A stretch of DNA of 64,000 nucleotides. Source: Owenia fusiformis (lineage: Eukaryota > Annelida > Polychaeta > Sabellida > Oweniidae). The DNA is taken from contig CAIIXF020000009.1 in assembly GCA_903813345.2 (NCBI GenBank), forward strand, positions 15,649,759-15,713,758. The letters run 5' to 3'. Below the pieces are notes generated by a model. The model worked only from the letters and a program-made list of their open reading frames with translations, had not been told where the DNA came from and made no database searches. A program made the translations under genes and the position numbers. Position 1 is the stretch's first letter; each line of letters begins with the position of its first letter. Positions 11,779 through 42,379 of this stretch are shown one piece after another.

Positions 11779-12117
11779 CTATTCATCAAATCTCATTTTT
11801 TTATTTGAACTACTTGAGTTATTTGAACCTGCAAAGCTCCTCTTGGTGCCATATCCATTACTTCTGCCTCTGAATCCAGGACTTTGGTTCCTTCCAAAGC
11901 TAGCATTGTTATTTCCACCAAAACTGTTTCTATTTCCACCAAAACTGTTTCTATTTCCACCAAATCCACCACGGTTGCCTCTATTGAAGCTCCCCCTATC
12001 TGCACTCTCAAGAAGCTCTGGTAGCTCATTGGCAACCTCTAGTGTGTCATATTGTCCATCTTGCCACGCGTCTTTAACCTCCTGGTCATGCTCGGAGGGC
12101 AGATCAAACACAGCACC
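11779..12117 (-). CDS. DDX21: Helicase coding exon 15 (C-terminal tail)
   Basis: Acceptor [25 protein letters not shown] finishes GUCT. Then a Gly/Asn/Arg/Phe-rich tail with two NRNSFGG repeats and a basic end [11 protein letters not shown], stop TAG at 11779-11781. Vertebrate homologues end in FRGQR repeats; this tail is shorter in arginine. Confidence 0.88.
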   Translation of the reverse strand, partial: GAVFDLPSEHDQEVKDAWQDGQYDTLEVANELPELLESADRGSFNRGNRGGFGGNRNSFGGNRNSFGGNNNASFGRNQSPGFRGRSNGYGTKRSFAGSNNSSSSNKKMRFDE

Positions 12118-18100: not shown

Positions 18101-21100
18101 AGAAAACAGTAAAGGTTACAGCTTCTTATTCTTAGAAACTGTGATGCAGCAGTCGATTGAAGAGAGGACCTTCTGCATAACTAATTTTGAAACAAACTGG
18201 ACAGCAGCAACGCCAAAGAGTAGCAAATCCCATCGAACAGCCATGGTTGGCATTTTTACAAACAGTGCATCGCAAAAATCATAAAATTACACACGTAAAA
18301 AATGGCCATTTTCAAAATGGTTGCTCAATAGCCAAATTGTCATCAGAAAGTGTAATATGCTTCTAAGTTAGCACATATAAATTTTCAACAAAATCGCACA
18401 CACATATAATTGGAGACCATTTTTCAAAATGGTCACCTACTAGCCAAAATGTCATAAGACAGTATGCCATGCTTATGAGTGCTCACATATCAAATATGAA
18501 CAAGATAAAATCCCTCTATTACTTTTTGAGTTATAGTAAATAAAAAAATAATAATAAACACGTAAAAATGGTGGCCATTTTTCAAAATGGCAGCCTACTC
18601 CCCAAAATGTCATATCAAATATATGTACAAAATCACTCCACTACGTTTTGATTTATAGTAAAAACTAGATGTTATAGCACCTGTGAAGCCATTTTTCTTA
18701 AAGTTTGCAGACAAGGATTTTAGCATTTGACTTCAAAATGGCCGACAAGAAGTAGGTATCCAGTTAAATTTTTTTCATCCATCCACTCATAAGTTATCCC
18801 TGAAAATTTGAAGGTGTTATCTGTAGCGGTTTTGTAGAAAACTGCCGGACAGACGGACAGACAGATGGACGGACACGCCTAGGCTCCACATTATGTGGTG
18901 GGGACATAACAAAGCATATAGCAAAAATGGCAGCCATTTTTCAAAAAGGCCACCTTCTACCAAAAGTGTCATTAGATAGTGTGCCATGCTTATAGTATTC
19001 ACATACCAAATATGAACAAAATCGCTTGGCAAAAAATTGTTCACTATACGCAGGTCATGTATGAACAAAATCGCTCCACAACTTTTCGAGTTCTAGTAAA
19101 ATATGTTAAAATAGTGGCCATTTTTCAAAATGGCCACCTTCTACCAAAATATGTGTACAAAATATGAACAAAATTGGGCCAACGGTATTTGAGTTATTGC
19201 CCGGACGGATGCGTTCCTTATATATCCCTCCGAACTTTGTTCGATGGGATATAATAATAATCAGAGTTTAAGAGTGAAGAAGAGGGAAGTCTATCTCTTT
19301 TGTAGCTGAATATTTGCCATCACATACCTGGACTGTGGTAGAAGTCTTGTTCTTCTGCTGTCCTATGATGTCTATCTTGAAGAGATCTTCCTTCATGTAC
19401 TTTTCTGCAGTTTGGTACACCCAAGATGGACAAGTTGCTGAGAATAACAATGTCTGTGGTTTCACATCTGAAAACATTAAACATTATACTGAATACTGTA
19501 CAAGATGTAATTATAACGTGTATTTAATTATAACAAAAAATAACGAATTGTCTTTGTCGTTATGTTTTATTCCCGGTATATATTCTGACTTTCGACCAAG
19601 TTAATTATTCTTGTTTGATAAAAATCGGGATAAAAATGGAGCTCGGAAAAAATGAAAACGGACGTCAATTGCTTTACCATTCAGCATAATCAATGTAATA
19701 TTGATTGATAATCAGTTGAACATCGGCACAACTTACCTCATTTGTTATCCTGTTACCATTTAGTATGTTTATTCACCGTTAAACAGCAAAAAATCATACC
19801 AAAATCAACTTTTTCGATCATTTCTATAATGCTTCAACCAGAGGTCAAAGTTCATAATACACACAAATATATACATGATTAAATCCTCAGATATTTTACT
19901 CAGAGTACTCGTAGGTTTCAGAAAAAGTTCCATTTTCTTTAATAACAGTCTTACAGTATCACGATAAGAAAAACACACACACAACATTCACAAAATCATG
20001 AGAGGTGTAGAGTGTTTTCGTTATATTTTAATACCGTTATAATAATATATCCTACAGTATCTACATTCAGAGGCAAATCCCACGAAACAAAACATATTTT
20101 ATCGAATCCCTAGTAATTTTAGACATTACAAACTGATCACCATCAAGGATCTTTTCTCAAGTGGGTGCATAATTCTAATTTTCACAATTCGGACCAAAAT
20201 TGGTCAAATTATACTCATGATTTTTCTCATTTTCAAGTGGGTTCAAATGGATTTTCAGGTGGGTGCAAGGCTATTTTCAAAATCTCAAGTGGGTGATGCA
20301 CCCACTTGGTTTAATGCTGGGGAAGTCACTGTTACATGATAGAAACAAGCATTAACATGCAAAATGGCATCACCTACCATTTGTTGTACAAAAGCCGACC
20401 ACTGAACAGCAACTACCAAACACACTCAAACCCTCATTCTGACTAGACTTAATTAAAATCGTACCTTGATATGATGTATATGGTTACTTTAATGATCAAT
20501 ATTGTGGTTGGCAAACTGATAACATACAAGTGGTACCAACCTTGTTTGTAAGCAAACTGTAGGATCTCATCCACAGTATCAGCAAAGCCCATGTCTAACA
20601 TGCGATCCACCTCATCCAAGATGGCATGCTTGAGGTTGTCAATCTTCAACACTCCCTTCTGCAGGTGGTCTAGAATACGCCCAGGGGTCCCTACCAGTAC
20701 ATCTATACCCTGTCTGATGTCACTCACTAAAACACAATGTCAATGATGTACATGTATTGAAAGTGATGCAAGCCACGAGTATGAAGGAAAAAACACAAAA
20801 ATAAAAAACACACTGAAATACTGACTCAGATTACATAAATCATCATGAAACTGTTTCTTCTAATTTATTTTCTAAAACTCTTTTGAACTAGGTAGTTTTA
20901 TGTGTTCAATGTTTATTTTGTAATATTTTTTTGACAAGGCATTAACATGACAAAATGTCACCACCTAGTTACACACAACATTATTAGTTCAATCTTAGTC
21001 AGTTTTGAATTGAGAACTTGTAGATGATTTTTAAAAATCAAATTGGTCAATTTGAAACAAGTTGAAAAAAGACCTTTTTGACCCTGAGAAGATCATTGAA

Positions 21101-24100
21101 GGTGAAATCTCAAATCTAGTCAGATTTGAAATTCTGAGAAATCGTAGATGATTTTAAAAAAAATTGGTCAATTTGAAGCAAGTTGAAAAATACCTTTTTG
21201 ACCTTGAGAAGGTATTTGAAGGTCAAATCTCTCTTGACCTTTGGAGTATAATTGAAGGTCAAATCTATAGTCAGATTTGAACTTTTGAGAACATGTAGAT
21301 GATTTTGAAAAAAACTGGTCAATTTGAAGCAAGTTGAAAAAAACCTTTTGGACCTTTTTTTACCTTGAAAAGGTCATTGGATGTCAAATCTTAAATCTTA
21401 AGTCAGATTTGAACTTTGGAAAACTTGTAGATTATTTTGAAAGAAATTGACGTCAGTCTAAACAGTATATTGTTAAGTTATTGGAAGTTTTAAGAATTGG
21501 TTACAGACACCAGCCGCCACCTGCCGATCGCCAACCACCAACTGTCGATCACCAGCTACCAACCACCCCACAAAAAATGGAGACCATAACAATATGTCAC
21601 CACTTTTTTATGGTGACATAATTATGCTGTGGTATAAAGGTACAAAATTGACATATAGCATGTGGTAAAATAGGTTCTCGAGTCACATATTAGACCTTTG
21701 GAAAATGGTCTCATAGAAAAACTTAAAGAATGTTTGAATTAAGACTCACTCTGTGGGCCAAAGGGGGTACCCCCATAGAAGCAAGACACTGCAAGCCTAT
21801 CTGAAACAGATTTGAAGTCCTCACTGACCTGGTTGGCTAGTTCTCTTGTGGGTGCCATGACAAGCACCTACAACACAAAGTTAATGAAAGCTTGCTATTA
21901 ATATTATTATATACAAGATGGCATTGATGAGCAGGGTTGATCCGGAAGGGCCAACTTTAAAACCATAGCTTTTAGATTGCAGCCTTGATCAGCCTTGAGC
22001 ATAGGATAAGACAATGCATTAGCATGCAAAATCTCATAACCTGCCATTTGTTACAGACGCTGACTGCTGGATGCTGTTACAGACACCAAACAACACTCAC
22101 AAAAATTGGAGAGTATAATATGTCATCACTTGTGGCGGTGACATAAAAGCTGATCTTAATAATAAAATAAAACTATAACTAAAACTCCACAAGAGTCATA
22201 AATCCCAATGAATATGATTATTGAGGTCTTTCAAAAGATTTTTTCAAGATGAACATTTTAGTTTCAGTAGCAGTAGGCAACATGATGTAAACAGTTATTC
22301 TTGTTTTTTTATATAATTATTTTCGTACAATAATTTTCACTTGTATTAATTTATTTTGACTTCTCAATACAGCCATTCTCCGTTAGCGTGAAAAATGGTG
22401 TAACTGCTTTTCCTAATGATGTTAATCAAAATATATGCATTTTTATGGTATAAATGACATTTTTTTTCAAAAATTATGAATTGGCAGTAAAATTAAATAC
22501 ATATTACAAATGCACCATACTGTGTTACTGGCTGAGAGGTGTCTGAAGTATGCGGGGTACCCAAAATGGCCTGTCACCGAAGTGATAAGTGAACATAGAG
22601 TTGCTGTTCATTGTACACAAATGGCATACAGTCGCTATGTAACATATTATAACATATCTTCAGTACAGTAATATCTACTTTCACTAAAAATACCTAACCT
22701 CACGATCCATCTTTTAGTCTTTCAAAAATTTAACTTTGAATTCTGTCACTCAGTTGTATCTAATTTAAGAGTCAGACACTTCAACGTGGTCTCTTATGTA
22801 AGCTTCTTATCAACAAGTTATTGATCGCAAACTAATCACATATTGATAACTGATCCAACAAACGAGGCTTTTTTATGACAAAGGGTAATCAGAAATTCTA
22901 GTCCAACTTATGGATTCTAGAATGGAAATTTTGGCCCTAAATTATGGGACTGCCATTTTAAAAGAACATGCAGACATATTCTGACAAATCTGATGCAACA
23001 GATATTTAAGCACGTTGGGTCTCTTTTTAAAACCAGCTATATTCAAGATCATGGTTTCATATTTCCGGTGTTATAATTTGTTGAAATTCTTATTTAATTT
23101 ATGAGATTAATTTACGGGACACACGATTTTTGAAAATATGAAAATTTTTATATCAATTTACTTGTTAGGACCATGAGATTGATATGCAACCAAGGAAATA
23201 AGTATGTGATGTACAATATTTGTCATTTTAGCATTTAGAGGTGTCCTGTAAATTAGGTCCATAAATTAAATGTGTGTTACAACAATGCGTCATAACTTCT
23301 CCAATTTTGATACAAGGCTGGTGAAACTTGGCATTTTTCATCCACAGACCATAGGAATCCATGAATTAAGTAGAGCTAGTATTTTGGTTGAGGTCGAAAA
23401 ATTAATATTTTGACACCTCAAAAGTCACACTTAATGGAGAATGAGCGAATAGGCTTACAAGACGAGTCCATATATTGTGAATATTATATCAAGACAAAAT
23501 AGAAAACAGCAAATCCAAGGAGAAGCAAATCCCACTGAATAAAACATATTTTATTAAATAGCTTGTCACTTTGGACATTAAATGATAGAAATAACCATTG
23601 GTTCAAGAGGTAGGGATTTTAATTTGTCTAAATATTGTTGACAGAATTATAGACGGAGAAATGAGTGGGATAGGTTTACCATATGAGACAAAAAATATTG
23701 TTAATTTATACCTTGGGTGATCTTCCTCTTCCATACTTGGCCTCCTTCTGAAGTTTCTCAACAAGAGGTAGGGCAAAAGACAACTGCAAAACAACATATC
23801 AAATCATGAATGTTACATTAAATACAACCATAGCACATTTTAGATGTCTGTTGGGTTGATATATATGATATATCATCTCATAGTTTGACAAATAATGTGA
23901 TAATCAATTCATTTTGAAAAAACAAACTTATTATCACGAGTTGTCATCAAAAGATTTGTCCAGCTTGGGGGAGCATGCTATTTTTCATAAAATAGTACCG
24001 TGGGTACTGGGCTCACATGGTGTTGCTCAAAAGTGAATGATGGCTAAATGACAGAAAATAAAATAAAGGACCCTGTCCTGTGCTCACACTGTTTGGAACC

Positions 24101-27100
24101 TTCAGAGGAATGTATATCCTGACTTTCAAACAAAAATATTGATTTGGATTTGTAGTCTTGAGCTTTGACAAACTTAGATAGCACAGTTGTGTGACCTAGT
24201 TTGATGACCTTTGACCTTGAAAATTTTACTTATTCAGAGCACAGTAAGGTCTTTTGTGATTAAGTTGACCAAAATTTACATCCAAAAAGCAAGTTGAAAA
24301 ATAACTTATTTTTACTGTTTTTTGACGTCAAATATCTCAAAAACGGTAAAAATTTGATACTGACATATATTGAGCAATATGTAGGGAATGCTTAAATCTA
24401 GTAATGATGTAATTCATTGCAAGAAATGATCAAGTATAAGGCAAACTTTGAGAAACTTGTCAATAACAAAACCTGCCATTGATACACGAGAAAGTTTCCT
24501 GAAAATGACAAAGTCCTACTTTTTGTCATATTTTCTGGAGTAATCACCAAAAACTGAAATTCCAAGAGCTTTGAAATCTTCAGAGGACATAAGTTGCATA
24601 TACAGCAACTACTACAAGTTATTTGAAAGTTCTACTTCAACAAAGTGTCTAGTATTTACAGAAAATGTGACTATTTGACGTCAAAATCAGCAATTTCTCA
24701 GAAACTGGGCGAACTTGGGAAATGGCGATGATAGGTCAAATAGGCATTTGATGAATAAATGAATAAAGTGAATGTGGATATGACTCAATCCGAATAGCAG
24801 TCTTAATTCGTGCGGCCAATGTTGAAGGACGGGCCAACGGACGGACGGACCAAGGCACGGAAGTCATTTGTTGCTGCTGCATTAGTCTCTTCATTCATTG
24901 TCTTCTTTCTTTGTCTTGATTTGATTGTGATGTTAGTTATCTTTCTTCAGGGTCCACAGACTTGAGACTGCGCGTAGGTGGGTTAAACGTTTTGATCCGG
25001 CCAGAAAACTCACCCCTTCCCATTGCTGATGTTCTTATGTTGATCTGTCTTCTTAGTTCACCCTCTTTGTGGAGAATATACGGACGGACCAACGGACGGA
25101 CAGACCAACAGACGCCTGGTCGATCCAATAGGCTCACTGTGTGAGCCAAAAAACAAGGTATAACTTTAAATCGATATCTAACAGTCTATAGTGGAAATAT
25201 TGAAGATAATCGCAGAAAACAATTCCTTCACCTCGAGGGGCTCTGCTGGGGAGTTCTTCAATCACTGTCAATATAGTTAGATTCTTGCTTTAGTTTAGCG
25301 ATCTTTACCGTATTCTCTCCAATAACAATACATATCATTATTGTAAATATATGCCGTCACTTTTGTTGCAAATAAGGCATTTTTGGCAAGAAAAAGTCCC
25401 ATACATTAAATTCCCGAGGATTTTTGACTTCTCTCATATATGGGCGCTCTTTGTAATGTGTTACAATGGGAATTTCAATTTCAAAAGCGCCCTGGGCACT
25501 TATTACGGCAAATACAGTAGTATGAACAAAATCGCTCCACTACTTTTCGTGTTATAGTAGAATACATTAAAATTTTTCAAAATGGCCGCCTTCTACCAAA
25601 AGTGTCATTAGACAGTGTGCCATGCTTATAGTATTCACATACCATTATATGATCAAAATCGCTCCATTACTTTTCGAGTTATAGCAAATATCGTAAGATA
25701 ACGAGTAAAGGACGCCATTTTTCAAGATGGCTGCCATGTGCTTCTTAAATATCTACATTTCTAGCTTTAATAATGTCCTATATAATTTCTTCACATTTAA
25801 AACATGTTGCTATTACAGGTTTACATATTGCACCTAAATTACTGTAAAATGGCCACTAAAATAGCCGCCATTTTTGCCTTTCGAGCAGAACTTCTATCCC
25901 CATAGGGTATATGTATACAAAATATGAACAAAATCGGGCCAATGGAATTTGAGTTATTGCCTGAAAGGACAGAGGTGTTCCTTATATCCCTCTGAACTTC
26001 GTTCGATAGGATAAAAATTATTACTTACTGTTTTTCCTGTACCAGTCCCTGAAAGTACAAACAAAATTTGGATCATTACACAATCCTCTTATGTTAAGTT
26101 TGCTCCATTGAAAATGTTTCCCAAAGTATGATTTGAGGCTTGGCAGGGGTAGGGGTGAACAAAGACTTGACATTTGTGTTTATTAGTTCTCTCTGATCTC
26201 AACATTTGAGATTGTTAGAATAATGTTATTCATTTTTTCAGTTTGACTATGTACACGATGCCCATGTAAATCTGCTTGTTTTGTATTTTTCGAAAACGTA
26301 AGCGCTATATGTAAGGCACATATGTGTCTAATAGTAGAACCCCATAATTGAAATACTATGAGAGTCCATCCAGCTATATGAAAAACACCTACACGTGCCT
26401 CTGTAGAAATTCCAATGATAATATGTACGAGAAGTAGTTTTGATAGTTTATGGCTAAAATAGGCACGCAGTTTGTGCTTCATTTCTTTTCAATCTCCTGA
26501 TTATCTATTTTACCTCGAAATATTTTGAATTATACATGATTAATGCGTAAGGAATTAAATATAAAACGAGTCTGAAGTATTTGTCATTTATGTTTAAAGT
26601 GCTAGATCAATTTACATATAAATTTCCGTTAAATCGGTGACGAAAATGCCATTAATCTGCTTATGTTTTAAAACGTAGATCCATTTGTACATAGTTTTTG
26701 CAAAATTTGTATATTCTTCACAGAATGAATGCATTAAACAAGAAAACAATGCATGATAAATGTCTTAAAAAAATTATGTTTCAAAATCCAGACTCCAACT
26801 TGAATGATGCAATTTTGTTAGGCACACAGTTTGTGATCGAAACAAATAGCGTGCCTGTATTCCAAAATGAATAGAATTACTTTGTAGAACCATATTCAAA
26901 GGAACACTATACAGAGAAAGTTGCATGGCTGTGTGTTGGGCAACTTCTTTGGGGAAAAATTGCAACTCTTTTGTCTCTGTATACACGCCCGATGATCGTG
27001 AAAATGGGATGGAGGGGGGGAGCAAGCAATTTCTGGTAGAAAAATTACATGTCCAAAGTGTGATGTGCTGTGTATGATATGCCTACAAATCAGCAAGTAA

Positions 27101-30100
27101 AAACGTTAAGACAGGTAAACATTTATAGATATACAGTCTCCTGGAATATTTTGCCAACCATCGTATTTTGTAAAGTCATTAAGGTCATTAATTTTATGAT
27201 GATAATGTCACTTACAAATATTTATTGCAGGTTGTGTAGACCGTTGATGCTTGATTTAAAGCAAAAACATTGACTTTTGCACATTGGTGGCGTCGCGCCT
27301 TTTCTAATAGATCTTATACCTAAGAAGAGAATCGGCTAAAAAAAATTCGTAGAATATGTGACATATTTTACCATACTGTGCGCCTATTCGTTTAGCAATT
27401 AAATCATAAACCTTTTCTTGAAAAAATAATTTTTGCAGATTTGTTCATTTTTCTACCAGAAATTGCTTGCTCCCCCTCCGTCCCATTTTCACGATCACCG
27501 GGCCTGGTATAATATTGTTCTCCTTTTAGTAGGCTAATAGCAGAATGTATAATCTGCTCTGGTAACTTGAAACTTGTTAATTAGTAGGACAAGTCTTGAG
27601 TTTAATTGTTTATCCTACTGCCCACCTTAATAACAGTGTTCGCTTACTTGCTTGTGCAATTACATTTGTACCCCAACCCACCTTAATAAGAGTGCCCACT
27701 TGCTTGTGCAATTACATTTGTACCTTACCCACCTTAATAACAGTGTCCACTTACTTGCTTGTGCAATTACATTTGTACCCTACCCACCTTAATAAGAGTG
27801 CCCACTTGCTTGTGCAATTACATTTGTACCTTACCCACCTTAAGAACAGTGTCCACTTACTTGCTTGTGCAATTACATTTGTACCCTACCCATCTTAATA
27901 ACAGTGCCCACTTACTTGCCTGTGCAATTAAATCTGTACCCTACACACTTTAATAACAGTGTCCACTAACTTGCTTGTGCAATTACATCTGTACCCAACC
28001 CATATTAATAACAGTATCCACTTACTTGCTTGTGCAATTACATCTCTACCGTCAAACACAGCTTGGAATGTCTTAGCCTGAATGGGGAACAGATATTTTA
28101 CTCCTCTAGCTGAAAAAATTAAAAGATATTACAGCACCATGGAGCATGGATTTGGCACATCATCCATTAATCAGGCATGTCTTTTGTACTCATGTAACTC
28201 CTCCAAGATTTAAAATTGAGTGACCTTTTATATGCTACCCCAAAAATCTTTAGAACTTCCTCTAAAACAGTTGAGAATATCAACCTATTAATGCAGGTAA
28301 TAATTGAGATAGAGCCTGTTGCAAGGGTTCATTTTTTTGGACCACCCTGCATATGGTTTTCAGATCTGATATCAGTTATCTTCTTCATGGTTTCATATAT
28401 GACTTTTACAATTGGGTTATCTGACACTTTCTAGAAATTGCGATAGGGAAAACCAAATTATTTTTACTCCGTGATTCAAATATTTTCAACGGTTAAATTG
28501 GTTGTTCCAGGCTGTTGCATCTTCCTTTTATACTCAGTTTTCACATTTAAGCATATTTCATTGTTGCCTTGAAATGAAATAACTTGATCTTTCAAATTTA
28601 AATAGTAAATGAAATTCCCTGACAATTCAATAATATTACATGAAAAACTTGAACGAGTTCAATTTCAGACTCCAGATCTAGACATTTTTTAAGCCTAGTC
28701 ATCCAAAATAAGCTGAGTCATCTAGAATAAGCCGAGTCATCCAAAAAAAGATGGATGGGTGGATTGAATAGGAAGGAAGAATAGGATAGAATAGGAAGGG
28801 AAAATAGGATAGAATAGGAAAGAAGGATAGGATAGAATAAGAAGGAAGGATAGGATAGGAAAAAAAGATATGAAGGAAGGATAGATAGGAAGGATGGAAG
28901 AATGGATGGATTTTCAACATTTTCTTCACTACTTGACTTTCTAACAGGATACCATCAGATCGATTTTTCTTGAAATTTCAAAACGCCATAACTTTCAATG
29001 AAACCGGAAGTCGGATCGAAATTTGGTTTGCAGACTCGGATTCCTGAGAAAATTCTTCCCTTAATTAATAACTCATATGTTAAATTTGGAGAACTTTTTA
29101 TTTTGACCTACTTTTCGGTCAAAATACTCTCTGACGACAAAAGGCTAACACTATTAGCACACTTTTGGCTACATGTATACACAATTTCGAAGAATATAAT
29201 TAAAGTGTAGTGTCAGAATCGCAAAACTAAGGAAAAACTTTGAATTTGACCTGGGCATTTTGGTGTCCAAATTTTGAAGCTAGATGGCTTTTGAGGTCCC
29301 AATCTTTTAAAAGCTTTCATTATATTTAGCTGAACTCAGTCTATATTTCGTATTTTACACTTCAAAAAAATCTTTTTTCCCATTGACTTAACATGGACAC
29401 CAAATTTAGCGATTTTTGAGCTTTCAAAATGCCATAACTTCCGAACCAGAAGTCCGATCCAAATTTGATTTGCAGATTCGGATTCCTGAGATCATTTTAC
29501 ACTTATTTCATAACTCTCATGTTGAATTTGGAGAACTTTTTGTTCTGACCCAGGGGTTTCAATAAATATTTTTTCAACAGGCCTTTGGCAATTTCAACAG
29601 GCTGAATTTTTTTTGACCATTCGCCGCTCGCTTCGCTCGCATTCTCGTTCATATTTGGAGTTAAATATACCCCTTGCGCTTCCTCACTGTGACATAAAAC
29701 GATAAAATCAGTATTTTCCTGTCACTTTTATACAAACTGTATATGACCAATAGATCTATTTGACTTGTTCATTACTTTATGTGTTTTTTTAATGTTGACT
29801 CGTGTAAATTAATAAACTCAATATTTCTGACACATTATTAATCTCAATGAAATATAAAGATAACATTCAATAGTTTGATATGCATTTTTGACTTGTAATA
29901 TTTTATTTGTTTTCAAATTTTGCCCTTTGTGCTTCCTCACTATGATGTAAGATAATGCCAAGAAGATCAATTGTATTGATTATACTGTTTGTTTTCAAGT
30001 CCATTGAAAGTTGACAGGACAGTGATAAAGGTTTTTTGCTACTGACCCATTAGTCTCAAAGCAATGTTGGTTTGAGAGTAGGTCAATAAAAATGGTGGAC

Positions 30101-33100
30101 GGATTACAGTAAGATAATTATCTCAGTGTTTCTCTAAAACACTGCTGATTATCTGCCTATTATACTTAGATTTTGCCTTCACAAGGTAGGCCAATTTATA
30201 TTCTTTCATTTGATATGTCAAACTAAATTCACTCCCCCAAGTTTTCTGCAAGTTAAAATGCTCAATTCTGCAAGTGAAATTAGTGAATTCTGCAAGAAGA
30301 AAGGGCTAATTCTGCAGAAATTCCGCGGATATTCGCGGCATTTTTTTGCGGTTATTATAAAAAAAATCAAGATTGGTTTAACAAGAAACTTCAAACACGG
30401 AGGATCGGGCGCATAATGGGAATCACGATATATGTAAATCAGGTTTTAAGTGTAATATCTCATTGGAGTTCGAAGTTTTCGATCAATAACTTAATAATAT
30501 AAATAACTGTTATTAATTTATGTCTTTGTTTAACTTTCTGACGAGAACCGAAAGAAAAACTAATGGTTTTCGAACCAGTAAACGGGAAAATATCGTGATA
30601 GTCAGGTAGTCAGTCTCAGTCACTACATACATGCTGCCATCTAACGGCAGAAATCAAACGATGGCGTTTAGAATTTTCACTTCGCATAATTTGGGTTATT
30701 TCTGCAAGGGATTTGACTGAAAACGTGTCAAATTGTTACAGGTAAGACTGACTTTTTAAACTTTTGGAAAATATATGGATTCTGCGGAAAATTCCGCGGA
30801 AATTGACCAAAATAGTTGATTCTGCAATTCCGCGGGCAGAGGCAAATTCCGTCCGCGCTCTGCAAACACGGAATCCTGGGGGCAGTGTAAATTGATTTGT
30901 CTCATGTGTCAGCAAATTCTCTCATCATTTGGACCGGCAATTTTAACCGGCGTAACTGGGATTTGAAGCGGCGTTTTCGCCGCCCGCCGGCTGTTATTGA
31001 AACCCCAGCTGACCTACTTTTCGGACACCATATCTCAAAATCGGTAACAGTAATCAAAAATCTGATGGCACATTTGTGAAAGGGCTGTTTCTAAGCTACA
31101 TGATGAAAAAAAGACAAAGTTGTTTCGATAAATAACGACGAAGATAATAGACAGAAGGTTGAAAATTTAAGATTTGACCTAGTTCTTGACCTTTGACCTA
31201 GATAAAAAATTGACGCAATTTCCGAGAAGCTAAATACTGGATCTAAATTGACCATATACAGGACTTGACTCAATGTCTACATCTGGAGTCTAATAATATT
31301 AACAGGTTGATCTTGAAACAAAAAGAAGATCTACAATATTTTGAGAGTGACTCACCTAAAAGTTTATCCACTGTCTTTTTTGATATGTCAAAATTGTTAA
31401 ATTGTCCGGCCTTCTGGTCAGGTGACAGTTCAGGTTCTGAGTCACTCGCTTCTGACTCATCTTTTACTGTGACACCATTTGATTCAACTTTCACATTTCC
31501 ATTTGTTACACCATTTGTCATAATCTCTGTCTGATCTACCTTAATTTTCTTTTCCTTTTTCTTTTTGGGACTTGATTCAGTCTTTTCAATTTTAATCTTT
31601 TTCTTTTTTGTTTCTGGTTCTTCTTTGTTCACATTTTCTGGTTCTTCTTTGTTGACATATTCTGGTTCTCCTTTGCTTTTTCGTTTTTTCTTTGTATCTT
31701 TGCTGTCACCATTCTTTAATTCAGTTGGTGTATCATCTCCATTGAGCTCTTCCACTTTGTTCTTCTTACTCTTCTTTCCCTACAGAAAGATTGCTTGATA
31801 TAAAATGAAACTCATATGAAAATCAAAAACAAGGTATTAACATGACAAAAACGTTCATTGATTAACACAGCTCCCTAAGGATGTGACCTTTGTGAGAATG
31901 TAAGCCAATGAAGTAACATATGCAGATAATCATCAGTATAGAGAACCACTTCTTGTGGTGACATGAAAAAATGTTAAGGACAGGGTGCATGTTGGGAAAT
32001 TTCTGCATTCCTCAATAGACTAGATGCGAGTAGAAATAATCTTGATTTGCGTTATTAAATATTCAAAATTCAGTCAAAATGATGACATATTTGAAATCTG
32101 CTTGTAAGAGTACATCTAGAAATAAGTTTTCGAAAATTGTCTATCAACTTTGAAAATTTAATTTTTTTTGAAAATGTGACTTCTTGTTCGGGTTGATTCC
32201 TCATAGACCCCATGTTACAAAATCACAAAAAGTGAATAATCTTTTCTTGTATTGGACAGATAGCATTTTCTTTTACTGGACATATTTTAATATGCATAAC
32301 TATTAGATACATGAGGGTTATATGATAATTGAACCACGCAAATAGATGTAATTTAAGTTAAAGGGAACTTTCTACTATACCCGCCATGCTATCTGACCCG
32401 AACGAGCCACCTGGTGGTGAATCTGGTAACTACCTACTCGCATCTGCGTTATTGAGTCACATGTTACTTTTCAAACAAGAATAACTCCTTCTCCACATTG
32501 TCTACATCTTCCAGGTTTGCACAAAGAGTGCACTTATGTGCCTAGAAAAGCCTTGTGAGAAGATTTGTTTTGTAAATTGTATAAAAAAAATGAGAAAATT
32601 CAGTGAAAAAAAATTCTGAAAATTTTCTGAATTTTTTCACTGAATTTTCTTGCTTTTTATACACTTTATCAAAACATCCTCCTCACAAGTCTTTTCTAGG
32701 CACATAAGAGCACTCTTTGTGCAAAACTGGAAGATATAGACAATGTGGGGAAGGAGTGATTCTTGTTTGAAAAATAACATGTGACTCAATTGAGGAGTGC
32801 AGAAAATTTCCCATCATGCACCCTGACCTTAAATCTAAAGTATCCATCTTCCCAAAGATATTAATTTCTACATTCTTTACCTTTTTGGAAACTGGCAGTT
32901 GTTGATCTGTACCCTTCACTATGGTGTCAGTTTCAGGTTCAGTTTCCATATGGACTTCCTTAGCTGCCTTGCTTTTCTTAGTTCCCTGAAATTGAGAAAG
33001 AGCTATTGAAATTTAATGTAGCAACGTACATCACTGGTGATCCACTCGATTACGCTGGTTACCGAAACGGAACCGTTTCACCGTTTCGGTAACAAAATAT

Positions 33101-36100
33101 AGGAATTTTCTTTTTTCCTTATTTCACGTGTTGTAAGCAGAATCCCCATGACATTTTCTCACACATGTTTTAGAAAATGTACATGTTTGCGAAAAAAACA
33201 GCTCAGAAGACTGAGTTCCGCAATTACACATGGTAACATTTCATTATTTTGTTATTTAACCATATGAACTGGTCACTAGAATAATTGTTTTGATTCTAGT
33301 CAAAACAGAGCTGTCAAGTGTCCCGTGAATGGAGGGATTATCCCGCGAATTTGATCAAAATTAGGCTAATTCGCGTGTCCCGCAATCTCCCGCAATGTCC
33401 CGCAAATGTGGCTTTGACCTCCGCGAATTTCCGAAATAGTTGCAATCCCCTATATTGTGATTATCTTATATAAGAAGCTAAGTTTTTGCACTTTTGAGGA
33501 GTAAAGTTTACCTAATCTTAAGTACCTAGCATGCTGTTGTTTGGTATCAAAATAAAGAGGAAGGGTGCAACTTTCATTTTAATTACGATAATAGGGATGT
33601 AGGTCACAAATCGTTCCAACGTTGGCCTTTTTACTACCCGTGTGGCCTTCATCTCAGAACTGAGCAAATGTTAGCAAACGCGAGTTACAATAAATGGACG
33701 CTGATATCTAGAAAGGGTTTGTAGAAAAAAACGGGTACCGGGTAGTAAATCCTCCATGCTGGGTTCAAACTTGGTACCCGGTCAAAAAAACGGGTACCCA
33801 AAAAACGAAAAATACGAATATAATATAACATAATTAGATTATGAGAAAACGTGTAAGATTTGTTTTGAATTTACAAAAATATATGTAACATCCTTCAAAA
33901 TTGAGCTAGAAGCTTCAAATAAAAAGCATATTTTAAGGCTCTTTTCTTCCTCTATCGTCATGGCCATATTTTCATTGGTTATGGGGGGGGGGTGCGATCG
34001 CACCATCGCACCCTCTCCTGGCTACGCCTATGACATTGTAATACATAACAATTTACAATTCAGTGGACATTTTTCGAAAATTGGGATAACTTAAATTATG
34101 ATTAATAATCAAAATCTTACACGTTGCATCATGTAAATTAACAGAATGTACTAAAAACCCTTCGACCCTGCGACATACGACTTTCAGCGTAGAACGTGAC
34201 GTCACTTCCGAATCATAGCATTCAAAATAATTAGCGTTTAATTACTTCCCCCATTCATTAAATCACGGTGGTCTAGAGGTAGAATGCTTGCTTAACGCGC
34301 GGGAGGCCCGGCTAATTAAGTTTTTCAAAAGGATCAAGGGGTGAACATTTGACAATTTTCAAGTGGCCCAGAAATCTTGAAAATGCTCAGAATCGTGAAA
34401 AATTGTACTGATTTTGAGAGAATATTTGGCCAATGGAGTGGTCCACTTGAACCCACGAATGCCCCCCCCCTGAATATATACATTTTAAGGGCATAAAGGT
34501 TATTACAAACACATCTATACAACTATATTTATTAGACATAGATATGAAACATTTCAGAACTAGATAACAGCAACGCGAGGTGGAGCAAATCCCATCGAAC
34601 TTTTGATCTCAAAATCGTTTAGTAAAAAAGTAAAATAAGACTTTAAAATACTGTAGAGGCCACTTTTCAAAATGGCCACCTGGCCAATGTGCCATGCTTA
34701 TGAGTATCAACATACTAGGGGGGTAGGGACGAAAAATTTCGAACGCAATGCGTGACATATACGTAATTCGCGTGAAAAGTCCGAACGAAATGCGTACGTT
34801 TTTTTTCGGCGTTCGTATTTTTGCTGTGTAGACAATCTTTTTTAGAAATTTTTCTACTGAAACATTTTTGCTTGACAATTACCAGGTAAAATGCGTATTT
34901 GCGTGCACAGGGAGCTCAAGTTGGAACTATACGTAATCATTTAGTAAACTGGACTGGGAAATCAGAGGTCCAAGGGTTTTTCAATAAAATATATTCCAAA
35001 AATTCTTGACACCCAGTAAGTTGTAGGGTCGAAGGGTCGTAGGTCGAAGGGTTTTTAGTACATTCCTAAATTAACACACGTCACCTCTCTGCTAAAGCAA
35101 CGATAGCTATTTACAGATTTAAATCATAATCAAAACAATTCATGTACCATCAAACGAACTATTGAAAATAGAGTAAAATTGATTTGTCTTGTTACTCAAA
35201 TCGTCCCCCCCCCCTTCATTACCAATGGAAATATGACCATGATGATAGAGGAAGAAAAGAGCCTTAAAATGCTTTTTATCTGAAGCTTCTAGCTCAATTT
35301 TGAAGGAAGTTACATACATTTTTGTAAATTCAAAACAAATCTTACACGTTTTCTAATGATCTTATTATGTTGTATATTCGTATATTTCGTTTTTTGGGTA
35401 CCCGGTTTTTTCGACCGGGTACCAAGTTTGAACCCAGCATGGAGGATTTACTACCCGGTACCCGTTTTTTTCTACAAACCCTTTCTAGATATCAGCGTCC
35501 ATTTATTGTAACTCGCGTTTGCTAATTCAATTGAAAGCCCATGCCTACAGTATATGAATAGGTACATTATGGGGGTAAGCGTTTCATAGTTGGGCACGAC
35601 GCCAGAAGTGCAAAGTATTGTTCCGAATTTTTTAATTTCGTGTAAGATTACGATACTCACACCTGAAGCATTGTTTTTGTTTTTGATAAATTACAATAAA
35701 GTTTAATAGTATTCCGATGCGTATTTTGTGAAATTATGTTGACGTTTATTTAAGTTACAATGTAACCGTGCATTATATTTGATTAATCAGTATCTGAAAG
35801 TTTGATTTAAGTACTTTTACACGCTTTTACATTAGTCCCAATCACGCAAATCCCTTGAATGTCCCCGGACATCCTGCAAATTTAGGTGGATGTCCCGCGA
35901 AATCCCGCAAAGTTAGGGCACTTTGTCTAAAAAATCTGTCTCTCTATGAAGTTTTTGGTGGTAAACCTGTTAACTGTCCCGCAATTACTACTTTTTTCAA
36001 GGCCTGACTTCGTCGCTAACATGCTAAATATAAGAGTTAGCTGACGTTTGGGAGTCTGACTTACCTTCTAAAGGTTAGAACCCGAATCTTAATGAAACCA

Positions 36101-37797
36101 TATCACCTTTGTTGCGTCGATGATGATGTATAAACATAGCATTTGATAGAAATTAGTGTAAATGCTTTTCCGACTTTTTCATTTTTCATCAATGTTGACT
36201 TCCGGGAAGGCGTTGTAGTTATCACGAAATAACGCATTGACCCATGAACTTTACTTTGTTGACGTGTCAACCAAACATGTCTGGTGTGAAAATTAAAAGA
36301 ATATTAAGCAATGTTCTACATCCGCCATGCTAAGTGAAGTAGCCAATATTTAAAATTACCAATTTCAAGTGAAGTACGCAACGAACGAAACTGCGTGATC
36401 TACACTCCCACTTTTGGTCTGAACGAAATGCTACGTAGAAATATGAGCCGTCTGCTGTATTAGTCAATTAATAGAGTAAGACCTGTTGGTGATGCTTTAT
36501 AATTTAGACCAAAACATTGAAGAACATACGAACCTGTAAATCGTGAAAACAACAAACAAATATTCGGTTTTCATATATGTTCGGTAATTTTTCGTATTGA
36601 AACTTCCGGAACTTACGAGGAAATCATTCATTTTCTCGGTCCATGATTTACCTCTTGGATGTTGTGGCAAATGCTCCATGGTTGACGGAACAAAGGTGAT
36701 ATGGTTTCATTAAGATTCGGGTTCTAACCTTTAGAAGGTAAGTCAGACTCCCAAACGTCAGCTAACTATTATATTTAGCATGTTAGCGACGAAGTCAGGC
36801 CTTGAAAAAAGTAGTAGGGTGTTTGTCCCTCGAATGGTCCCGCGAAATCCCGCGAATTTGATAAAAAAAAATTGGCCTATAAGCGCAATCACGCAAATCC
36901 CTTAAATGTCCCGCGAAATTCCGCGAATTTAGGAGATGTCCCGCAAAATCCCGCGAATTTTGGGCACTGGATCTAAAAAATCTGTCCCGCGAGAAAATCT
37001 TTGGGGGTTGACAGTACTGTCAAAATGGGCTCGATTTTTTCTCTTCGAGAATTTTCAATCCAGCCTCCAAGATGACTTCTGTCAGCTCAGTGGAGTAAGC
37101 TATAGTAATTCTTTATGTTCCCCACTGTAGTATATACAAAATGTAAAATAAACAAAACTTTGGGGATGTGTATCTAGACTTTCCAATAATGTACTATATG
37201 TACTATAAAAAAAGTAGATTTAATCTACTACAGTAAAATTTTAAATGTTTGTGAGTACTTTGAATTTAGAAAATAAGCAATCAATTGACCAAATTGAAAC
37301 AGTTTATGTAAAAATAGAAACATTTTTATTTCCTTTATATTTATCCCAACTTTTGTATATTTTAGTTTGTTTTGTAGTTTGGCTATCATATCTGTGTCCT
37401 CTTATATTTTGATACTTCTCTGCCATGTTATTTTCGGAAAAATTAACATGGCTGAAACTTTCTAAATTACAAAAGGCCACAGCTTTGCTGCATATTAAAC
37501 ATTACTATCTGAAATATACAAAAGTTAGGATAAATATAAATGTTTCTATTTTTACATATACTGTTTCAATTTGGTCATTTGATTGCTTATTTTCTAAATT
37601 CAAAGTACTCACAAACATTTAAAATTTTACTGTAGATCTAGGCCTAGGCCTATATCGTCAATATCCGTATCGTAGAGTGCATAAATTGTCAATATTACCT
37701 TCTCTTTCTTGCCCTTTTTTGATGTTTTTGCTACTGATTCTTGGTTTTCTTGAACACCCATGGTGTTATCTTTAGTGTCTTGTAGTTTTCCAGGCAT
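11779..37797 (-). CDS. DDX21: DDX21/DDX50-type nucleolar RNA helicase, 15 coding exons (795 aa)
   Basis: Fifteen GT/AG exons total 2388 nt in one frame. Residues 1-190 are lysine-rich and acidic (nuclear/nucleolar targeting). The core follows: FPIQ (Q motif, Q220), ARTGTGKT (I, 237-244), APTREL (Ia, 273-278), TPGR (Ib, 321-324), DEVD (II, 345-348), SAT (III, 379-381), IIFCEKK (IV, from 446), [11 protein letters not shown] (V, 496-506), [11 protein letters not shown] (VI, to 537). DEVD instead of DEAD marks the DDX21/DDX50 (Gu) group, as does the GUCT domain at about 561-670. A Gly/Asn/Arg-rich tail with NRNSFGG repeats ends at 795. Length is close to vertebrate DDX21 (about 780). The family is an ATP-dependent RNA helicase acting in rRNA processing and transcription. 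ATG at 37795-37797 is the first Met after an in-frame TAA upstream. Introns are large and full of repeats. Confidence 0.92.
12578..12712 (-). CDS. DDX21: Helicase coding exon 14 (GUCT domain)
   Basis: Acceptor TTTAG, donor GTATAA, phase 0. [20 protein letters not shown] to RITADKK (639-683), the RNA-binding GUCT fold. Confidence 0.85.
12943..13725 (+). mobile_element. Pearl-like element in helicase intron 13
   Basis: Starts 'gataacggcaactccgcgga' and TCCCAACGAA (12972-12981). It ends with a GACGGACGGACTGACTGACT-type microsatellite (13630-13682) and TTCGTTGGGA (13711-13720), a perfect inverted match to the start. Interior has 'tgcaaagcagccattttgaa'-type motifs. Confidence 0.65.
13775..14008 (-). 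CDS. DDX21: Helicase coding exon 13 (start of GUCT domain)
   Basis: Acceptor TTTTCAG, donor GTATGC, phase 0. [20 protein letters not shown] and an alanine-rich helix [16 protein letters not shown] (residues 561-638); matches the linker and GUCT start of DDX21/DDX50. Confidence 0.88.
14038..14640 (+). repeat. Truncated pearl-like copy in helicase intron 12
   Basis: Starts 'ctagataacagcaactccac' and shares its interior with 12943-13725 ('ccattttc', 'catggcccctggaggtca'), but lacks the microsatellite and right end. Confidence 0.55.
14941..15037 (-). CDS. DDX21: Helicase coding exon 12 (motif VI)
   Basis: Acceptor TTCTTAG, donor GTGAGT. Completes HR and continues [20 protein letters not shown] to VENRA (to residue 560). 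Confidence 0.92.
15170..15577 (+). repeat. 3' part of a pearl-like repeat
   Basis: AATGGCGGCCATTTTGAA motifs, then 'tatatccctcgaacttcgtt' and 'cagtgggataat' at 15548-15577, the family's right end without the microsatellite. Confidence 0.5.
15611..16751. mobile_element. TTAA-flanked foldback element rich in AAGCG/CGCTT
   Basis: Bounded by TTAA on both sides (15607-15610, 16752-16755), with inverted ends AGCTACGTTCACAC / GTGTGAACGTAGCT. The ends continue as imperfect inverted repeats for over 100 bp ('cttgtaaagcggcaccaaag' and its complement). A second left-end-like segment lies at about 15761. TTAA duplication suggests a piggyBac-like mobiliser; no full transposase is present. Confidence 0.65.
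16123..16218 (+). pseudogene. 31-codon coding-like remnant inside the foldback
   Basis: ATG in the context GACGATGG opens [20 protein letters not shown] and then [11 protein letters not shown] before TGA. Composition (acidic then RRER) looks protein-like and unlike the surrounding AAGCG repeats. It may be the first exon of the parent transposon's protein, or captured host coding sequence. No family recognised. Confidence 0.3.
16814..16941 (-). CDS. DDX21: Helicase coding exon 11 (motif V)
   Basis: Acceptor TTGTAG, donor [26 protein letters not shown] (motif V) to SYIH plus a split Arg codon. Confidence 0.92.
16942..17823. other. Helicase intron 10
   Basis: AT-rich, with 'gcttaatt' motifs repeated near 17640-17730. 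No element ends or RNA gene recognised. Confidence 0.4.
17824..18030 (-). CDS. DDX21: Helicase coding exon 10 (motif IV)
   Basis: Acceptor TTTCAG, donor [21 protein letters not shown] through [16 protein letters not shown] and [15 protein letters not shown] (residues 417-485). Confidence 0.9.
18197..19254 (+). mobile_element. Pearl-like element in helicase intron 9, with nested fragment
   Basis: Inverted 12-bp ends ATCCCATCGAAC (18227-18238) and GTTCGATGGGAT (19239-19250). The interior has repeated CCATTTTTCAAAATGG palindromic motifs. About 18665-18908 is a nested 3' piece of the 5641-6923 family, with its own GACGGACAGACAG tract and GTGGGGACAT end. Confidence 0.65.
19328..19467 (-). CDS. 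DDX21: Helicase coding exon 9 (motif III)
   Basis: Acceptor TTTCAG, donor [23 protein letters not shown] with SAT at 379-381, ending TSTTVQ. Bridges the two RecA-like lobes. Confidence 0.9.
19468..20540. other. Helicase intron 8
   Basis: Mostly unique AT-rich sequence. Near 20150-20300 'caagtgggtgca'-type motifs recur four times. A fragment starting 'gcattaacatgcaaaatggc' at about 20351 belongs to the 'aaggtc' repeat family. Confidence 0.4.
20541..20726 (-). CDS. DDX21: Helicase coding exon 8 (motifs Ib and II)
   Basis: Acceptor TTTTAG, donor GTTGGT. Encodes [15 protein letters not shown] and [16 protein letters not shown] (residues 308-369), with the Walker B DEVD at 345-348. Confidence 0.92.
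20955..21619 (+). mobile_element. Complete 'aaggtc'-family element in helicase intron 7
   Basis: Ends ATGTCACCA (20955-20963) and TGGTGACAT (21611-21619) are inverted. Between them are three to four tandem units of about 110 bp ('acttgtagatgattttga', 'caatttgaagcaagttgaaa', 'gaccttgagaaggt'). 665 bp, non-coding. Confidence 0.6.
21750..21867 (-). CDS. DDX21: Helicase coding exon 7 (motif Ia)
   Basis: Acceptor TTGTAG, donor [19 protein letters not shown] (motif Ia) through [10 protein letters not shown] (GG motif). Ends in phase 1. Confidence 0.9.
21868..23711. other. Helicase intron 6
   Basis: About 22015-22147 is a short derivative of the 'aaggtc' family ('catgcaaaatctcataacct' to 'gtggcggtgacat'). 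The rest is AT-rich with no recognised feature. Confidence 0.45.
23712..23783 (-). CDS. DDX21: Helicase coding exon 6
   Basis: Acceptor TTTGCAG, donor GTATAA. Encodes 24 residues, [20 protein letters not shown] then RSPK (245-268), between motifs I and Ia. Confidence 0.85.
24066..25148 (+). mobile_element. Repeat element with GGACGG tract and GTGAGCC hairpin end
   Basis: Starts 'cctgtcctgtgctcacac' and runs through about 800 bp shared almost word for word with 59805-62005. It ends in GGACGGACC-type microsatellite and the hairpin GGCTCAC-TGT-GTGAGCC at about 25130-25147. Acts as an 'empty site' reference for insertions in the second copy. Confidence 0.6.
25505..26013 (+). repeat. Pearl-like 3' fragment in helicase intron 5
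   Basis: Shares 'tagtatgaacaaaatcgctc', 'gtgtcattagacagtgtgcc' and the right end 'gaacttcgttcgataggat' with the copies at 18.2-19.3 and 51-52.5 kb. Ends 15 bp from the microexon donor. Confidence 0.55.
26029..26048 (-). CDS. DDX21: Helicase coding microexon 5 (Walker A)
   Basis: Twenty nt between CTTTCAG and GTAAGT, giving codons for TGTGKT plus two bases of the split Arg. Joined to its neighbours it restores motif I, ARTGTGKT. Skipping would remove the ATP-binding loop and shift the frame. Confidence 0.85.
26270..26865 (-). repeat. Second copy of the GCACGCAGTTTG element
   Basis: Reverse-complement match to about 47140-47840 ('aggcacgcagtttgtg', 'gacaaatact' complement, 'acaatgcatgataaatg' and others). 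Lacks the terminal double palindromes. Confidence 0.6.
26994..27496. repeat. Foldback in helicase intron 4
   Basis: Arms GATCGTGAAAATGGGATGGA... (26994-27044) and ...CCCATTTTCACGATC (27446-27496) are about 51 bp and nearly perfect inverted repeats, with a 400-bp AT-rich loop. Confidence 0.65.
27605..28025 (-). repeat. Minisatellite made from the 3' end and donor of helicase exon 4
   Basis: Eight 'tgtgcaatta' marks at 27653, 27705, 27760, 27811, 27866, 27921, 27976 and 28031 give periods of 51-55. The last lies in the real exon. Read on the - strand, each unit repeats the exon's GTAATTGCACAAGCAA end followed by a donor. Units at 27760, 27866 and 27921 keep GTAAGT, 27653 has GTAAGC, 27976 has GTTAGT, and 27705 and 27811 have GTGGGC. 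Confidence 0.85.
28026..28109 (-). CDS. DDX21: Helicase coding exon 4 (Q motif)
   Basis: Acceptor TTTTCAG, donor GTAAGT. Encodes [15 protein letters not shown] through DVIAQA (residues 210-237). Its last ~20 nt and donor are repeated seven times in the following intron (27605-28020). Confidence 0.88.
28735..28915. repeat. Purine-rich GGATA/GGAA microsatellite
   Basis: About 180 bp of 'gaaggatagg', 'aggatagaataggaag' and related units in helicase intron 3. The complementary open frame is low complexity, not a gene. Confidence 0.7.
28960..29550 (+). repeat. Direct repeat pair of ~170 bp
   Basis: 'gccataactt', 'agattcggattcctgaga' and 'aaatttggagaacttttt' recur at about 28980-29120 and 29430-29545. 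A hAT-like element inserted at the end of the second copy. Confidence 0.55.
29551..31008. mobile_element. hAT-like non-autonomous element in helicase intron 3
   Basis: Ends CAGGGGTTTCAATAA (29551-29565) and TTATTGAAACCCCAG (30994-31008) are inverted with one mismatch. CTGACC flanks both sides (29545-29550, 31009-31014), and the sequence continues as 'tacttttcgg', as in the sister repeat at about 29110. No transposase; interior has 'ttccgcgg' motifs near 30310 and 30800. Confidence 0.6.
31356..31779 (-). CDS. DDX21: Helicase coding exon 3
   Basis: Acceptor CTGTAG, donor GTGAGT. Residues 69-209: lysine clusters ([25 protein letters not shown]), a duplicated NKEEPE motif, acidic SEASDSEPE, then [15 protein letters not shown], which begins the helicase core. 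Largest exon; ends in phase 1. Confidence 0.85.
31833..31970 (+). repeat. Short 'aaggtc'-family derivative
   Basis: 'aaggtattaacatgacaaaa' to 'cttgtggtgacatgaa', the two ends of the family with almost no core. Confidence 0.45.
31974..32831. repeat. Foldback filling helicase intron 2, split by a MITE
   Basis: Left arm 31974-32016 plus about 32453-32620 pairs with right arm about 32635-32831 at roughly 90 percent, meeting in an A/T-rich centre ('gaaaattttctgaatttttt'). The left arm is interrupted by a MITE. Confidence 0.75.
32016..32452. mobile_element. AGATGCGAGTAG MITE, copy 1
   Basis: TIRs AGATGCGAGTAG (32022-32033) and CTACTCGCATCT (32434-32445). Other copies at 60149-60570 and 60583-61006 are very similar. 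The uninterrupted right arm of the host foldback reads CTCAATTGAGTC at the matching point, showing the insertion site. Confidence 0.75.
32881..32985 (-). CDS. DDX21: Helicase coding exon 2
   Basis: Acceptor TTTCAG, donor GTAAAG, phase 0. Encodes [10 protein letters not shown] and an acidic stretch ending LPVSKK (residues 34-68). The foldback element in intron 2 ends about 50 bp past its donor. Confidence 0.8.
34264..34311 (+). ncRNA. Truncated tRNA-Gly-like sequence (SINE head or relic)
   Basis: GGTGGTCTAGAGGTAGAATG and GCGCGGGAGGCCCGG match the first two-thirds of a metazoan tRNA-Gly, including box A. The sequence breaks off before the T arm. Not a functional tRNA; it may be a tRNA-derived SINE start. 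Confidence 0.5.
34558..34720 (+). repeat. Pearl-like 5' fragment
   Basis: 'agataacagcaacgcgaggt' and 'aaatcccatcgaac', then CCACTTTTCAAAATGGCCACC. It lies inside the loop of the 33.7-35.5 kb foldback. Confidence 0.5.
35986..36816. repeat. Foldback with ~127-bp nearly perfect arms
   Basis: 35986-36112 pairs with 36690-36816 with about one mismatch ('gctgacgtttgggagtctga' and complement). The loop is about 580 bp. The high identity points to a recent insertion or to gene conversion between arms. Confidence 0.75.
37228..37635. repeat. Foldback 60 bp from helicase exon 1
   Basis: 37228-37362 and 37512-37635 are inverted repeats at about 90 percent ('gtttgtgagtactttgaatt' and complement) with a loop of about 150 bp. 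Confidence 0.7.
37699..37797 (-). CDS. DDX21: Helicase coding exon 1
   Basis: [20 protein letters not shown] and 13 more residues ending KKGKKEK, donor GTAATA. The frame is open upstream to a TAA near 37894 without another ATG, so MPGK is the likely start; the second Met (MGVQ) is an alternative. The 5'UTR and promoter lie above 37797 but are not defined. Confidence 0.75.
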
Positions 37798-40202: not shown

Positions 40203-40294
40203 AAAACATAGATTGATTCATTATCCCATTTGATATTTAATGCGTCAACGTTTTCAGCATTTGGATCAGGTCTCCAAGAGACATAGCGTGGCAA
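39990..40294 (-). pseudogene. C-terminal tail of DIRS RT/RNase H
   Basis: PRYVSWRPDPNAENVDALNI, CPFSLITKVLQKIECEG and IIIVPMWTTQPWWPKLL continue the RNase H tail in a third frame. The tail overlaps the recombinase frame by roughly 200 nt, as in other DIRS elements. Confidence 0.7.
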
Positions 40295-40700
40295 GTTGCA
40301 ACTGGTGATTCAACCTAGATGCAAACATATCAATTACTGGTGATGGCCAGTTTGGCAGATTACAAATACGATCAAAGACCGATTTATCAACCATCCACTC
40401 CGTTTCATCATGAAACACTCTGGATTCTGCGTCGGCTTCGACATTTTGACACCCTGGAATGAATGCAGCGCTCAGCCAGATTTTTCTAAAAATACAGAAA
40501 TTCCAAATTTGTTTTGCTAACAAATCACAATCTGGTGATGTCATTCCACCCATCTTGTTAACATAAGCAAGAGCTGTGGTATTGTCCGTTTGTCCACGAA
40601 CGTGGATGTCGGAATGTGCTTTACAAAAGCATTTCAAACCTAAAAATATAGCCAGTAATTCAAGATAGTTGATATGATGTTTAGATTCCTCGTCTGACCA
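40266..40700 (-). pseudogene. DIRS RNase H domain, frameshifted
   Basis: NNWSDEESKHHINYLELLAI (catalytic Glu), GQTDNTTALAYVNKMGG (Asp) and NVEADAESR are RNase H blocks in order. The frame then runs into ASRLNHQL before a second frameshift near 40290. Confidence 0.78.
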
Positions 40701-40701
40701 A

Positions 40702-42069: not shown

Positions 42070-42379
42070 AAAAAATGTAGTATGTATCCAACAGACTGAC
42101 TAGAAGTCAGTCTGTTATGATGTACTACTTTCCTGTGGAAATTGCAGTGAAATTTTTTGCACAAAATTATCAATTGGAGGAAACATTTTTTCAATAAAAT
42201 AAACATTACAAAATTTCAATTAAATAGTAAGGTAGAATTAAATGCAATAAAAAGTAACACAGCATATTGTCTAGTGGAAATAAAGCTAGTTGAAATAACA
42301 AATGTGCAAATTAATTTTACCCAATCGGCCATTTTGAATAGCACTTCCTATGTAAACAAATATTTGGAATTACCAAACT

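Follow-up and report, generated by a model that had tools for sequence, protein, structure and literature searches.

The 64-kb window analyzed here, a single stretch of the genome of the annelid Owenia fusiformis to which positions refer unless otherwise stated, contains on its minus strand the gene for DDX21/DDX50 (Gu/nucleolar RNA helicase 2). Its coding exons 1-14 lie within 11779..37797 and were assigned from the open spliced coding sequence, Pfam domains, and a structure match. The 14 exons join in one frame to give a 2253-nt coding sequence of 750 amino acids with a single terminal stop, which rules out a pseudogene, and the product contains DEAD, Helicase_C, and GUCT domains (Pfam). Its best match among solved structures is Nucleolar RNA helicase 2, another name for DDX21, the matched chains being human. 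Among the 27 genome matches to DDX21 that were listed, the six with at least 85% identity are exons of DDX21 itself and the others reach no more than 54%; no retrocopy that might serve as a fossil of real splicing was found among these 27. Exon 4 (28026..28109, minus strand) is 84 nt in length, extends from phase 1 to phase 1, encodes a segment ending in DVIAQA, and is followed by the donor CAA/GTAAGT, where the slash marks the splice position. Exon 5 (26029..26048, minus strand) is a 20-nt microexon, the frame of which joins exon 4 and exon 6; its codons, the first of them completed by the final base of exon 4, specify RTGTGKT, the Walker A sequence or motif I. In the solved chain of nucleolar RNA helicase 2 (...DLIAQARTGTGKT), the residues specified by exons 4 and 5 are conserved.

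Other elements are present within or near this gene. A related short sequence occurs on the minus strand in four DDX21 introns (25969-26017, 19205-19254, 15543-15580, and 13677-13723); it is probably an interspersed element, and its intron 5 copy begins ~11 nt past the exon end. Upstream of DDX21, at 38991-42099 on the minus strand, two reverse-transcriptase pieces, one of them just below the Pfam cut-off, are followed by a phage-integrase-type domain in a DIRS-like retroelement. More reverse-transcriptase fragments are located at 53138-54982 (minus strand) and 58603-58944 (plus strand), and the 64-kb window contains no Rfam match at the gathering threshold.

The end of exon 4 belongs to a minus-strand tandem array (27621-28050), for which TRF reports a period of 55 (score 634) and a period of 106 (score 640). 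The 55-bp unit begins 25 nt before the end of exon 4 and runs through the 6-nt donor to 24 nt further into intron 4, and it is repeated seven times inside the intron, in register with the exon 4 end, at copy-to-copy steps of 55, 55, 55, 55, 51, 55, and 52 nt. The founder unit (copy 0, 27996..28050) includes the authentic donor, with its G at 28025. Proceeding into the intron on the same strand, copy 1 (27941..27995, 55 bp) contains a weak decoy donor, CAA/GTTAGT, at 27970; copy 2 (27886..27940, 55 bp) contains CAA/GTAAGT at 27915 and an in-frame TAA at 27930; copy 3 (27831..27885, 55 bp) contains CAA/GTAAGT at 27860; copy 4 (27780..27830, 51 bp) has a 4-bp deletion at the donor, leaving GTGGGC at 27805; copy 5 (27725..27779, 55 bp) contains CAA/GTAAGT at 27754; copy 6 (27673..27724, 52 bp) has the 4-bp deletion of copy 4 and GTGGGC at 27699; and copy 7, the last (27618..27672), contains CAA/GTAAGC at 27647. 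A second donor-like motif, AAG/GTGGGT, is located at 27838, 27787, 27732, and 27681 in copies 3, 4, 5, and 6, respectively, and has the form AAG/GTGGGC at 27625 in copy 7. The GT dinucleotide is kept in all seven copies, and the 9-mers of decoys 2, 3, and 5 are identical to that of the authentic donor. The original prediction, that the end of exon 4 and its donor recur seven times in the downstream intron, is confirmed by alignment of the copies, TRF, and shuffles, and the hexamers agree with its count of four copies retaining GTAAGT (three) or GTAAGC (one). Its tracing of part of the unit to the exon also holds, with the exon-derived part amounting to 25 nt instead of ~20 nt.

When the terminal 20 nt of exon 4 were compared with the 1000 nt that follow, seven matches scored 17/20 or higher (best 20/20), whereas 100 dinucleotide shuffles never exceeded 15/20; the array is therefore not a product of chance. 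No match at 17/20 was found for the other 12 exon ends of DDX21 or, on the upstream side and without shuffles, for its 13 exon starts, the best of which reached 15/20. At the end of exon 13, a 16/20 match exceeded its shuffles (maximum 14), and was dismissed as a similar repeat because it fails to extend. Origin from a dispersed repeat, a transposon, or an introner was rejected because a search of the 498-Mb genome, in which very common words are skipped, reported no further match to the array, and all six genome matches to a 22-mer, allowed up to two mismatches, fell at the DDX21 locus. Birth of the exon end from an older minisatellite was likewise rejected, the exon residues being conserved with those of the solved nucleolar RNA helicase 2. 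Judged by the conserved helicase residues that it encodes, exon 4 is the source of the repeat.

Relationships among the copies offer insight into how the array arose. Copies 3 and 5 are one substitution apart, and copies 4 and 6, which have the 4-bp donor deletion in common, are separated by one substitution plus a single-base insertion, a pattern of concerted evolution among inner copies with a higher-order period of 106 bp. In contrast, copy 0 (the exon itself) and copies 1 and 2 show seven differences from one another, which indicates that the exon-distal part was amplified recently. The latest amplification step was probably the duplication of a 106-bp dimer, and part of the array is, by this measure of divergence, young. 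Variable columns among the seven decoys are fewer in the exon-derived portion (3/25) than after the donor (10/25; Fisher p = 0.05). This difference could be read as constraint, but the copies are not independent and reflect few independent events, so that little weight is placed on the test.

The strength of each donor was assessed from its computed pairing with U1 snRNA, the canonical 5' end of which was present in all eight of the U1 loci fetched. A tandem U1 snRNA array is located at G000:C9:23745153-23771556 on the minus strand and accounts for 34 of the 42 matches listed, mostly 750 bp apart. The authentic exon 4 donor pairs at -6.7 kcal/mol, a value equaled by decoys 2, 3, and 5 (register-locked), while decoys 1, 4, 6, and 7 are weaker, at -2.8, -3.8, -3.8, and -4.5 (free-register values). 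The strongest computed pairing in the array is found not at the exon copies but at the second motif, where AAG/GTGGGTA at 27838, 27787, and 27732 reaches -11.5 and the site at 27681 reaches -9.9, energies that are inflated by the G.U wobble pairs of GTGGGT. Excluding the authentic donor, 14 sites in intron 4 pair at least as well as it does, 12 of them within the array (nine once overlapping pairs are merged, in ~0.4 kb), and the other 12 introns of DDX21 contain 28 sites at this threshold in 21.8 kb. A small donor matrix, built from the gene's other 12 donors, a number that is few for the purpose, also ranked the four AAG/GTGGGT sites at the top (9.68), followed by the authentic donor and three decoys (8.28); none of the 13 real donors of DDX21 is of the GTGGGT type.

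Masking of the decoys by RNA structure was considered and is unsupported. The probability that the donor 9-mer is unpaired was 0.0085 for the authentic site and 0.0035-0.0335 for the seven decoys in 150-nt windows, in which three of the seven were less open than the authentic site, and 0.0076 and 0.0018-0.0208, respectively, in 240-nt windows, in which five of the seven were less open. Predicted structure thus fails to separate authentic from decoy sites, and no local sequence feature tested accounts for why the decoys would go unused. The donor scoring of each copy that had been proposed at the outset distinguishes three decoys equal to the authentic donor from four weaker ones, and it draws attention to the higher-scoring AAG/GTGGGT sites that were overlooked initially.

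Use of decoys 1-7 would add 55, 110, 165, 220, 271, 326, or 378 nt to the transcript. Decoy 1 would shift the frame and lead to a stop at codon 271; decoys 2-7 would place an in-frame stop at codon 270 (position 27930), and the five GTGGGT/GTGGGC-type sites, if used, would do the same, such that truncation at codon 270-271 is predicted for all of the decoys tested, seven of the exon type and five of the GTGGGT/GTGGGC type. The added lengths had been described as multiples of 55 that mostly break the frame; they are not strictly multiples (271, 326, and 378), and all seven truncate the product, including the two that are divisible by three (165 and 378), which also bring in-frame stops. The array does lie just before the Walker A exon, as had been stated, and the helicase would be lost upon decoy use by virtue of the stop at codon 270 or 271. 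Exon junctions downstream of a stop codon mark a transcript for nonsense-mediated decay (NMD), and since eight to ten junctions lie 3' of the stop in products of the seven exon-type decoys, NMD is expected for them. By computation, skipping of exon 5 would result in a stop at codon 246 and skipping of exon 4 would keep the frame.

A survey of other loci placed this array in the context of the genome. At 68 loci (24 DEAD, 14 homeobox, and 30 kinase), the open frame surrounding each match, extended by 60 nt, was compared with its own flanks; the loci are best family matches and not a random sample, and a few of them overlap or share a gene (e.g., L024/L026 and L020/L027). With E up to 1e-10, eight of the 68 loci had a match, and two of these, L032 and L036, were counted as boundary repeats, their exon boundaries having been inferred from sequence. 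At L032 (G000:C1:25891745-25891984; locus positions 1726-1832), the inferred GTAAGT donor of a DEAD-box exon and its surroundings are duplicated once, 64 bp downstream (43 nt, 93%). L036 (G000:C1:18290537-18290719; locus positions 479-1497) contains a homeobox exon of a gene that we take to be Scr-like, preceded by 13 upstream copies of the inferred acceptor and first exon codons in ~76-bp steps (13.4 TRF copies), with CAG kept in 12 of the 13. Its nearest decoy acceptor (1406), located 75 nt upstream, lies in open frame, and its use could add 25 amino acids.

The remaining six matches were not counted. L061 (G000:C9:7574674-7575420, minus strand; about positions 80-400 when turned) is borderline, in that an upstream ~90-100-bp array extends as far as the acceptor inferred for a kinase exon with copies that have no AG at the acceptor place; the repeats at L012, L016, L066, and L074 are inside long open frames; and L045 (G000:C1:17970457-17970981) consists of two neighboring homeoboxes, posterior-type matches that share a strand and are separated by only ~350 bp. 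Between 1e-10 and 1e-3, L064 (end of the coding sequence and DNA after the stop), L027 (an array beginning just inside the intron), L015, L023, and L062 were also not counted. In a cross-locus control of 4556 ordered pairs, 15 passed the survey threshold; these joined loci from a single family search or a single gene, with the exception of L012-L066, two matches from separate searches that lie in one long open frame. Among the homeobox loci, L034 is a Lox5-type gene containing the KLTGP peptide, and L037 and L038 are genes of the Lox2/Lox4 type, signatures that are lophotrochozoan marks. What we presume to be the Hox cluster lies at ~18 Mb of contig C1, with a presumptive posterior-type homeobox at 56.9 Mb of the same contig. 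In O. fusiformis, the Hox cluster is described on chromosome 1 with Post1 apart (PMC9977687).

These observations are probably best explained by a boundary-spanning "mirage" minisatellite that is most likely near-neutral. A 55-bp segment joining the final 25 nt of exon 4 to the 30 nt that open intron 4 would have been duplicated in tandem and then amplified; the relationships among the copies are evident from their alignment, and slippage or unequal exchange may have been the mechanism. Splicing probably takes place at the authentic, exon-most donor in nearly all cases, as this donor defines the smallest, normal exon. Occasional decoy use would introduce the stop at codon 270-271, and the resulting transcript is predicted to be destroyed by NMD. 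The array would then be length-unstable intron sequence, by which an existing intron grew. Four of the seven exon-type donors are weakened, two of them by the 4-bp deletion common to copies 4 and 6, which does not suggest that they are being maintained, and the two additional boundary repeats among the 68 loci fit a mutational habit rather than a device particular to DDX21. Several considerations count against near-neutrality: three decoys match the 9-mer of the authentic donor, four AAG/GTGGGT sites outscore it on both scales, predicted structure gives no reason for the decoys to be passed over, and the human ABCA7 repeat, by analogy, shows that such an array can matter.

It is possible, as the original prediction proposed, that the array could tune or poison splicing. 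An effect of length similar to that in ABCA7, in which the array would draw U1 or other splicing factors and hinder inclusion of the 20-nt Walker A exon and/or yield a +55-nt retention isoform, such that DDX21 output varies between individuals, would agree with an architecture that corresponds to that of the ABCA7 repeat, including the exon donor (PMC5954066), with the small size of exon 5 and the early stop that its skipping would cause, and with the location in the array of 12 of the 14 intron 4 sites that equal or exceed the authentic donor in U1 pairing. We consider it unlikely, however, given the seven intronic copies (~0.4 kb) here vs. ABCA7 alleles of 298 to 10678 bp, the report that one-unit retention in ABCA7 is unchanged by length (PMC5954066), and the reported harmlessness of the amphioxus mirages. 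A bolder proposal joins two claims, that tandem duplication of boundaries is recurrent at donor and acceptor edges (DDX21, the L032 DEAD-box gene, and the Scr-like Hox gene at L036) and that the DDX21 array is a length-dependent rheostat on Walker A microexon inclusion through which helicase dose varies between individuals; taken together, these appear quite improbable.

A selected switch, in which decoys are maintained to send transcripts to NMD and thereby tune DDX21, seems very unlikely. The consistent truncation by all 12 decoys tested and the lower variability of the exon-derived part would be expected of such a switch, but random intron inclusion usually gives stops too, recent duplication of the dimer accounts for the likeness of most copies, and four of the seven exon-type donors are weakened. 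We give slightly less credence still to the idea that the array is a U1-binding platform, the sites of which enhance the authentic donor from within the intron or suppress premature polyadenylation. The GGG runs in the units and the crowding of 12 sites (nine when merged) into ~0.4 kb, vs. 28 in the 21.8 kb of the other 12 introns, would suit this role, yet site density follows automatically from repetition of one unit, and wobble pairing flatters the GTGGGT energies. That the array is an assembly artefact or represents collapsed haplotypes is hardly credible: tandem arrays are error-prone and copies 3/5 and 4/6 are nearly identical, but distinct substitutions and the shared 4-bp deletion are distributed among the copies in an ordered pattern and the window contains no N, even if copy number could still be off.

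The original prediction regarded the array as an unusual case, but repeats that copy an exon boundary are already a known kind, represented by the amphioxus mirages and the human ABCA7 VNTR, and the DDX21 array is a good new example. In amphioxus, tandem repeats spanning exon-intron boundaries are described in Adh3, the globins BflGb6 and BflGb9, and TnC, with similar repeats in PGBD5; the units are 10-160 bp in length, evolve in concert within an array, affect both donor and acceptor sides, and exhibit haplotype or somatic length variation (PMC3087553, PMC3902484). The Adh3 data and globin RT-PCR are said in these reports to suggest regular splicing without interference (PMC3087553, PMC3902484). 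The DDX21 array shares with the mirages a unit that spans the boundary, a splice signal kept in many but not all units, and concerted evolution. The mirages differ in being cephalochordate and in having splicing and length data, whereas this array is lophotrochozoan and known from the sequence of one assembly. In humans, internal tandem repeats at exon-intron boundaries have been connected with new introns (PMC2812944; also discussed in PMC3087553), and the DDX21 duplication similarly makes spare splice signals, although no new intron is apparent. Among the open-access papers listed on minisatellites and annelid boundary repeats, no annelid case was evident; the available portion of a report on an intronic minisatellite in earthworm metallothionein notes no boundary repeat (PMC12783039).

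The intron-18 VNTR of ABCA7, an Alzheimer's risk gene, has a 25-bp unit that starts with the exon-18 donor GT and is present in about 12-427 copies, giving alleles of 298 to 10678 bp; it is associated with a one-unit-retention isoform that is independent of length and with skipping of exon 19 that correlates with length, and both splicing and disease association were measured (PMC5954066). The DDX21 unit, as in ABCA7, flanks the exon directly and includes its donor, and addition of one unit shifts the frame. Unlike the ABCA7 unit, it is 55 bp in length, incorporates 25 exonic nt, is present in seven intronic copies, and is described here from its sequence. Such arrays are natural experiments on the choice of the spliceosome among near-identical donors, and they offer one plausible origin for new introns and exons as well as a hazard for gene annotation. 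With two further candidates in the same genome, the DDX21 array contributes a clear instance on the donor side, within a conserved helicase gene, of a class that the literature surveyed describes from amphioxus and one human VNTR.
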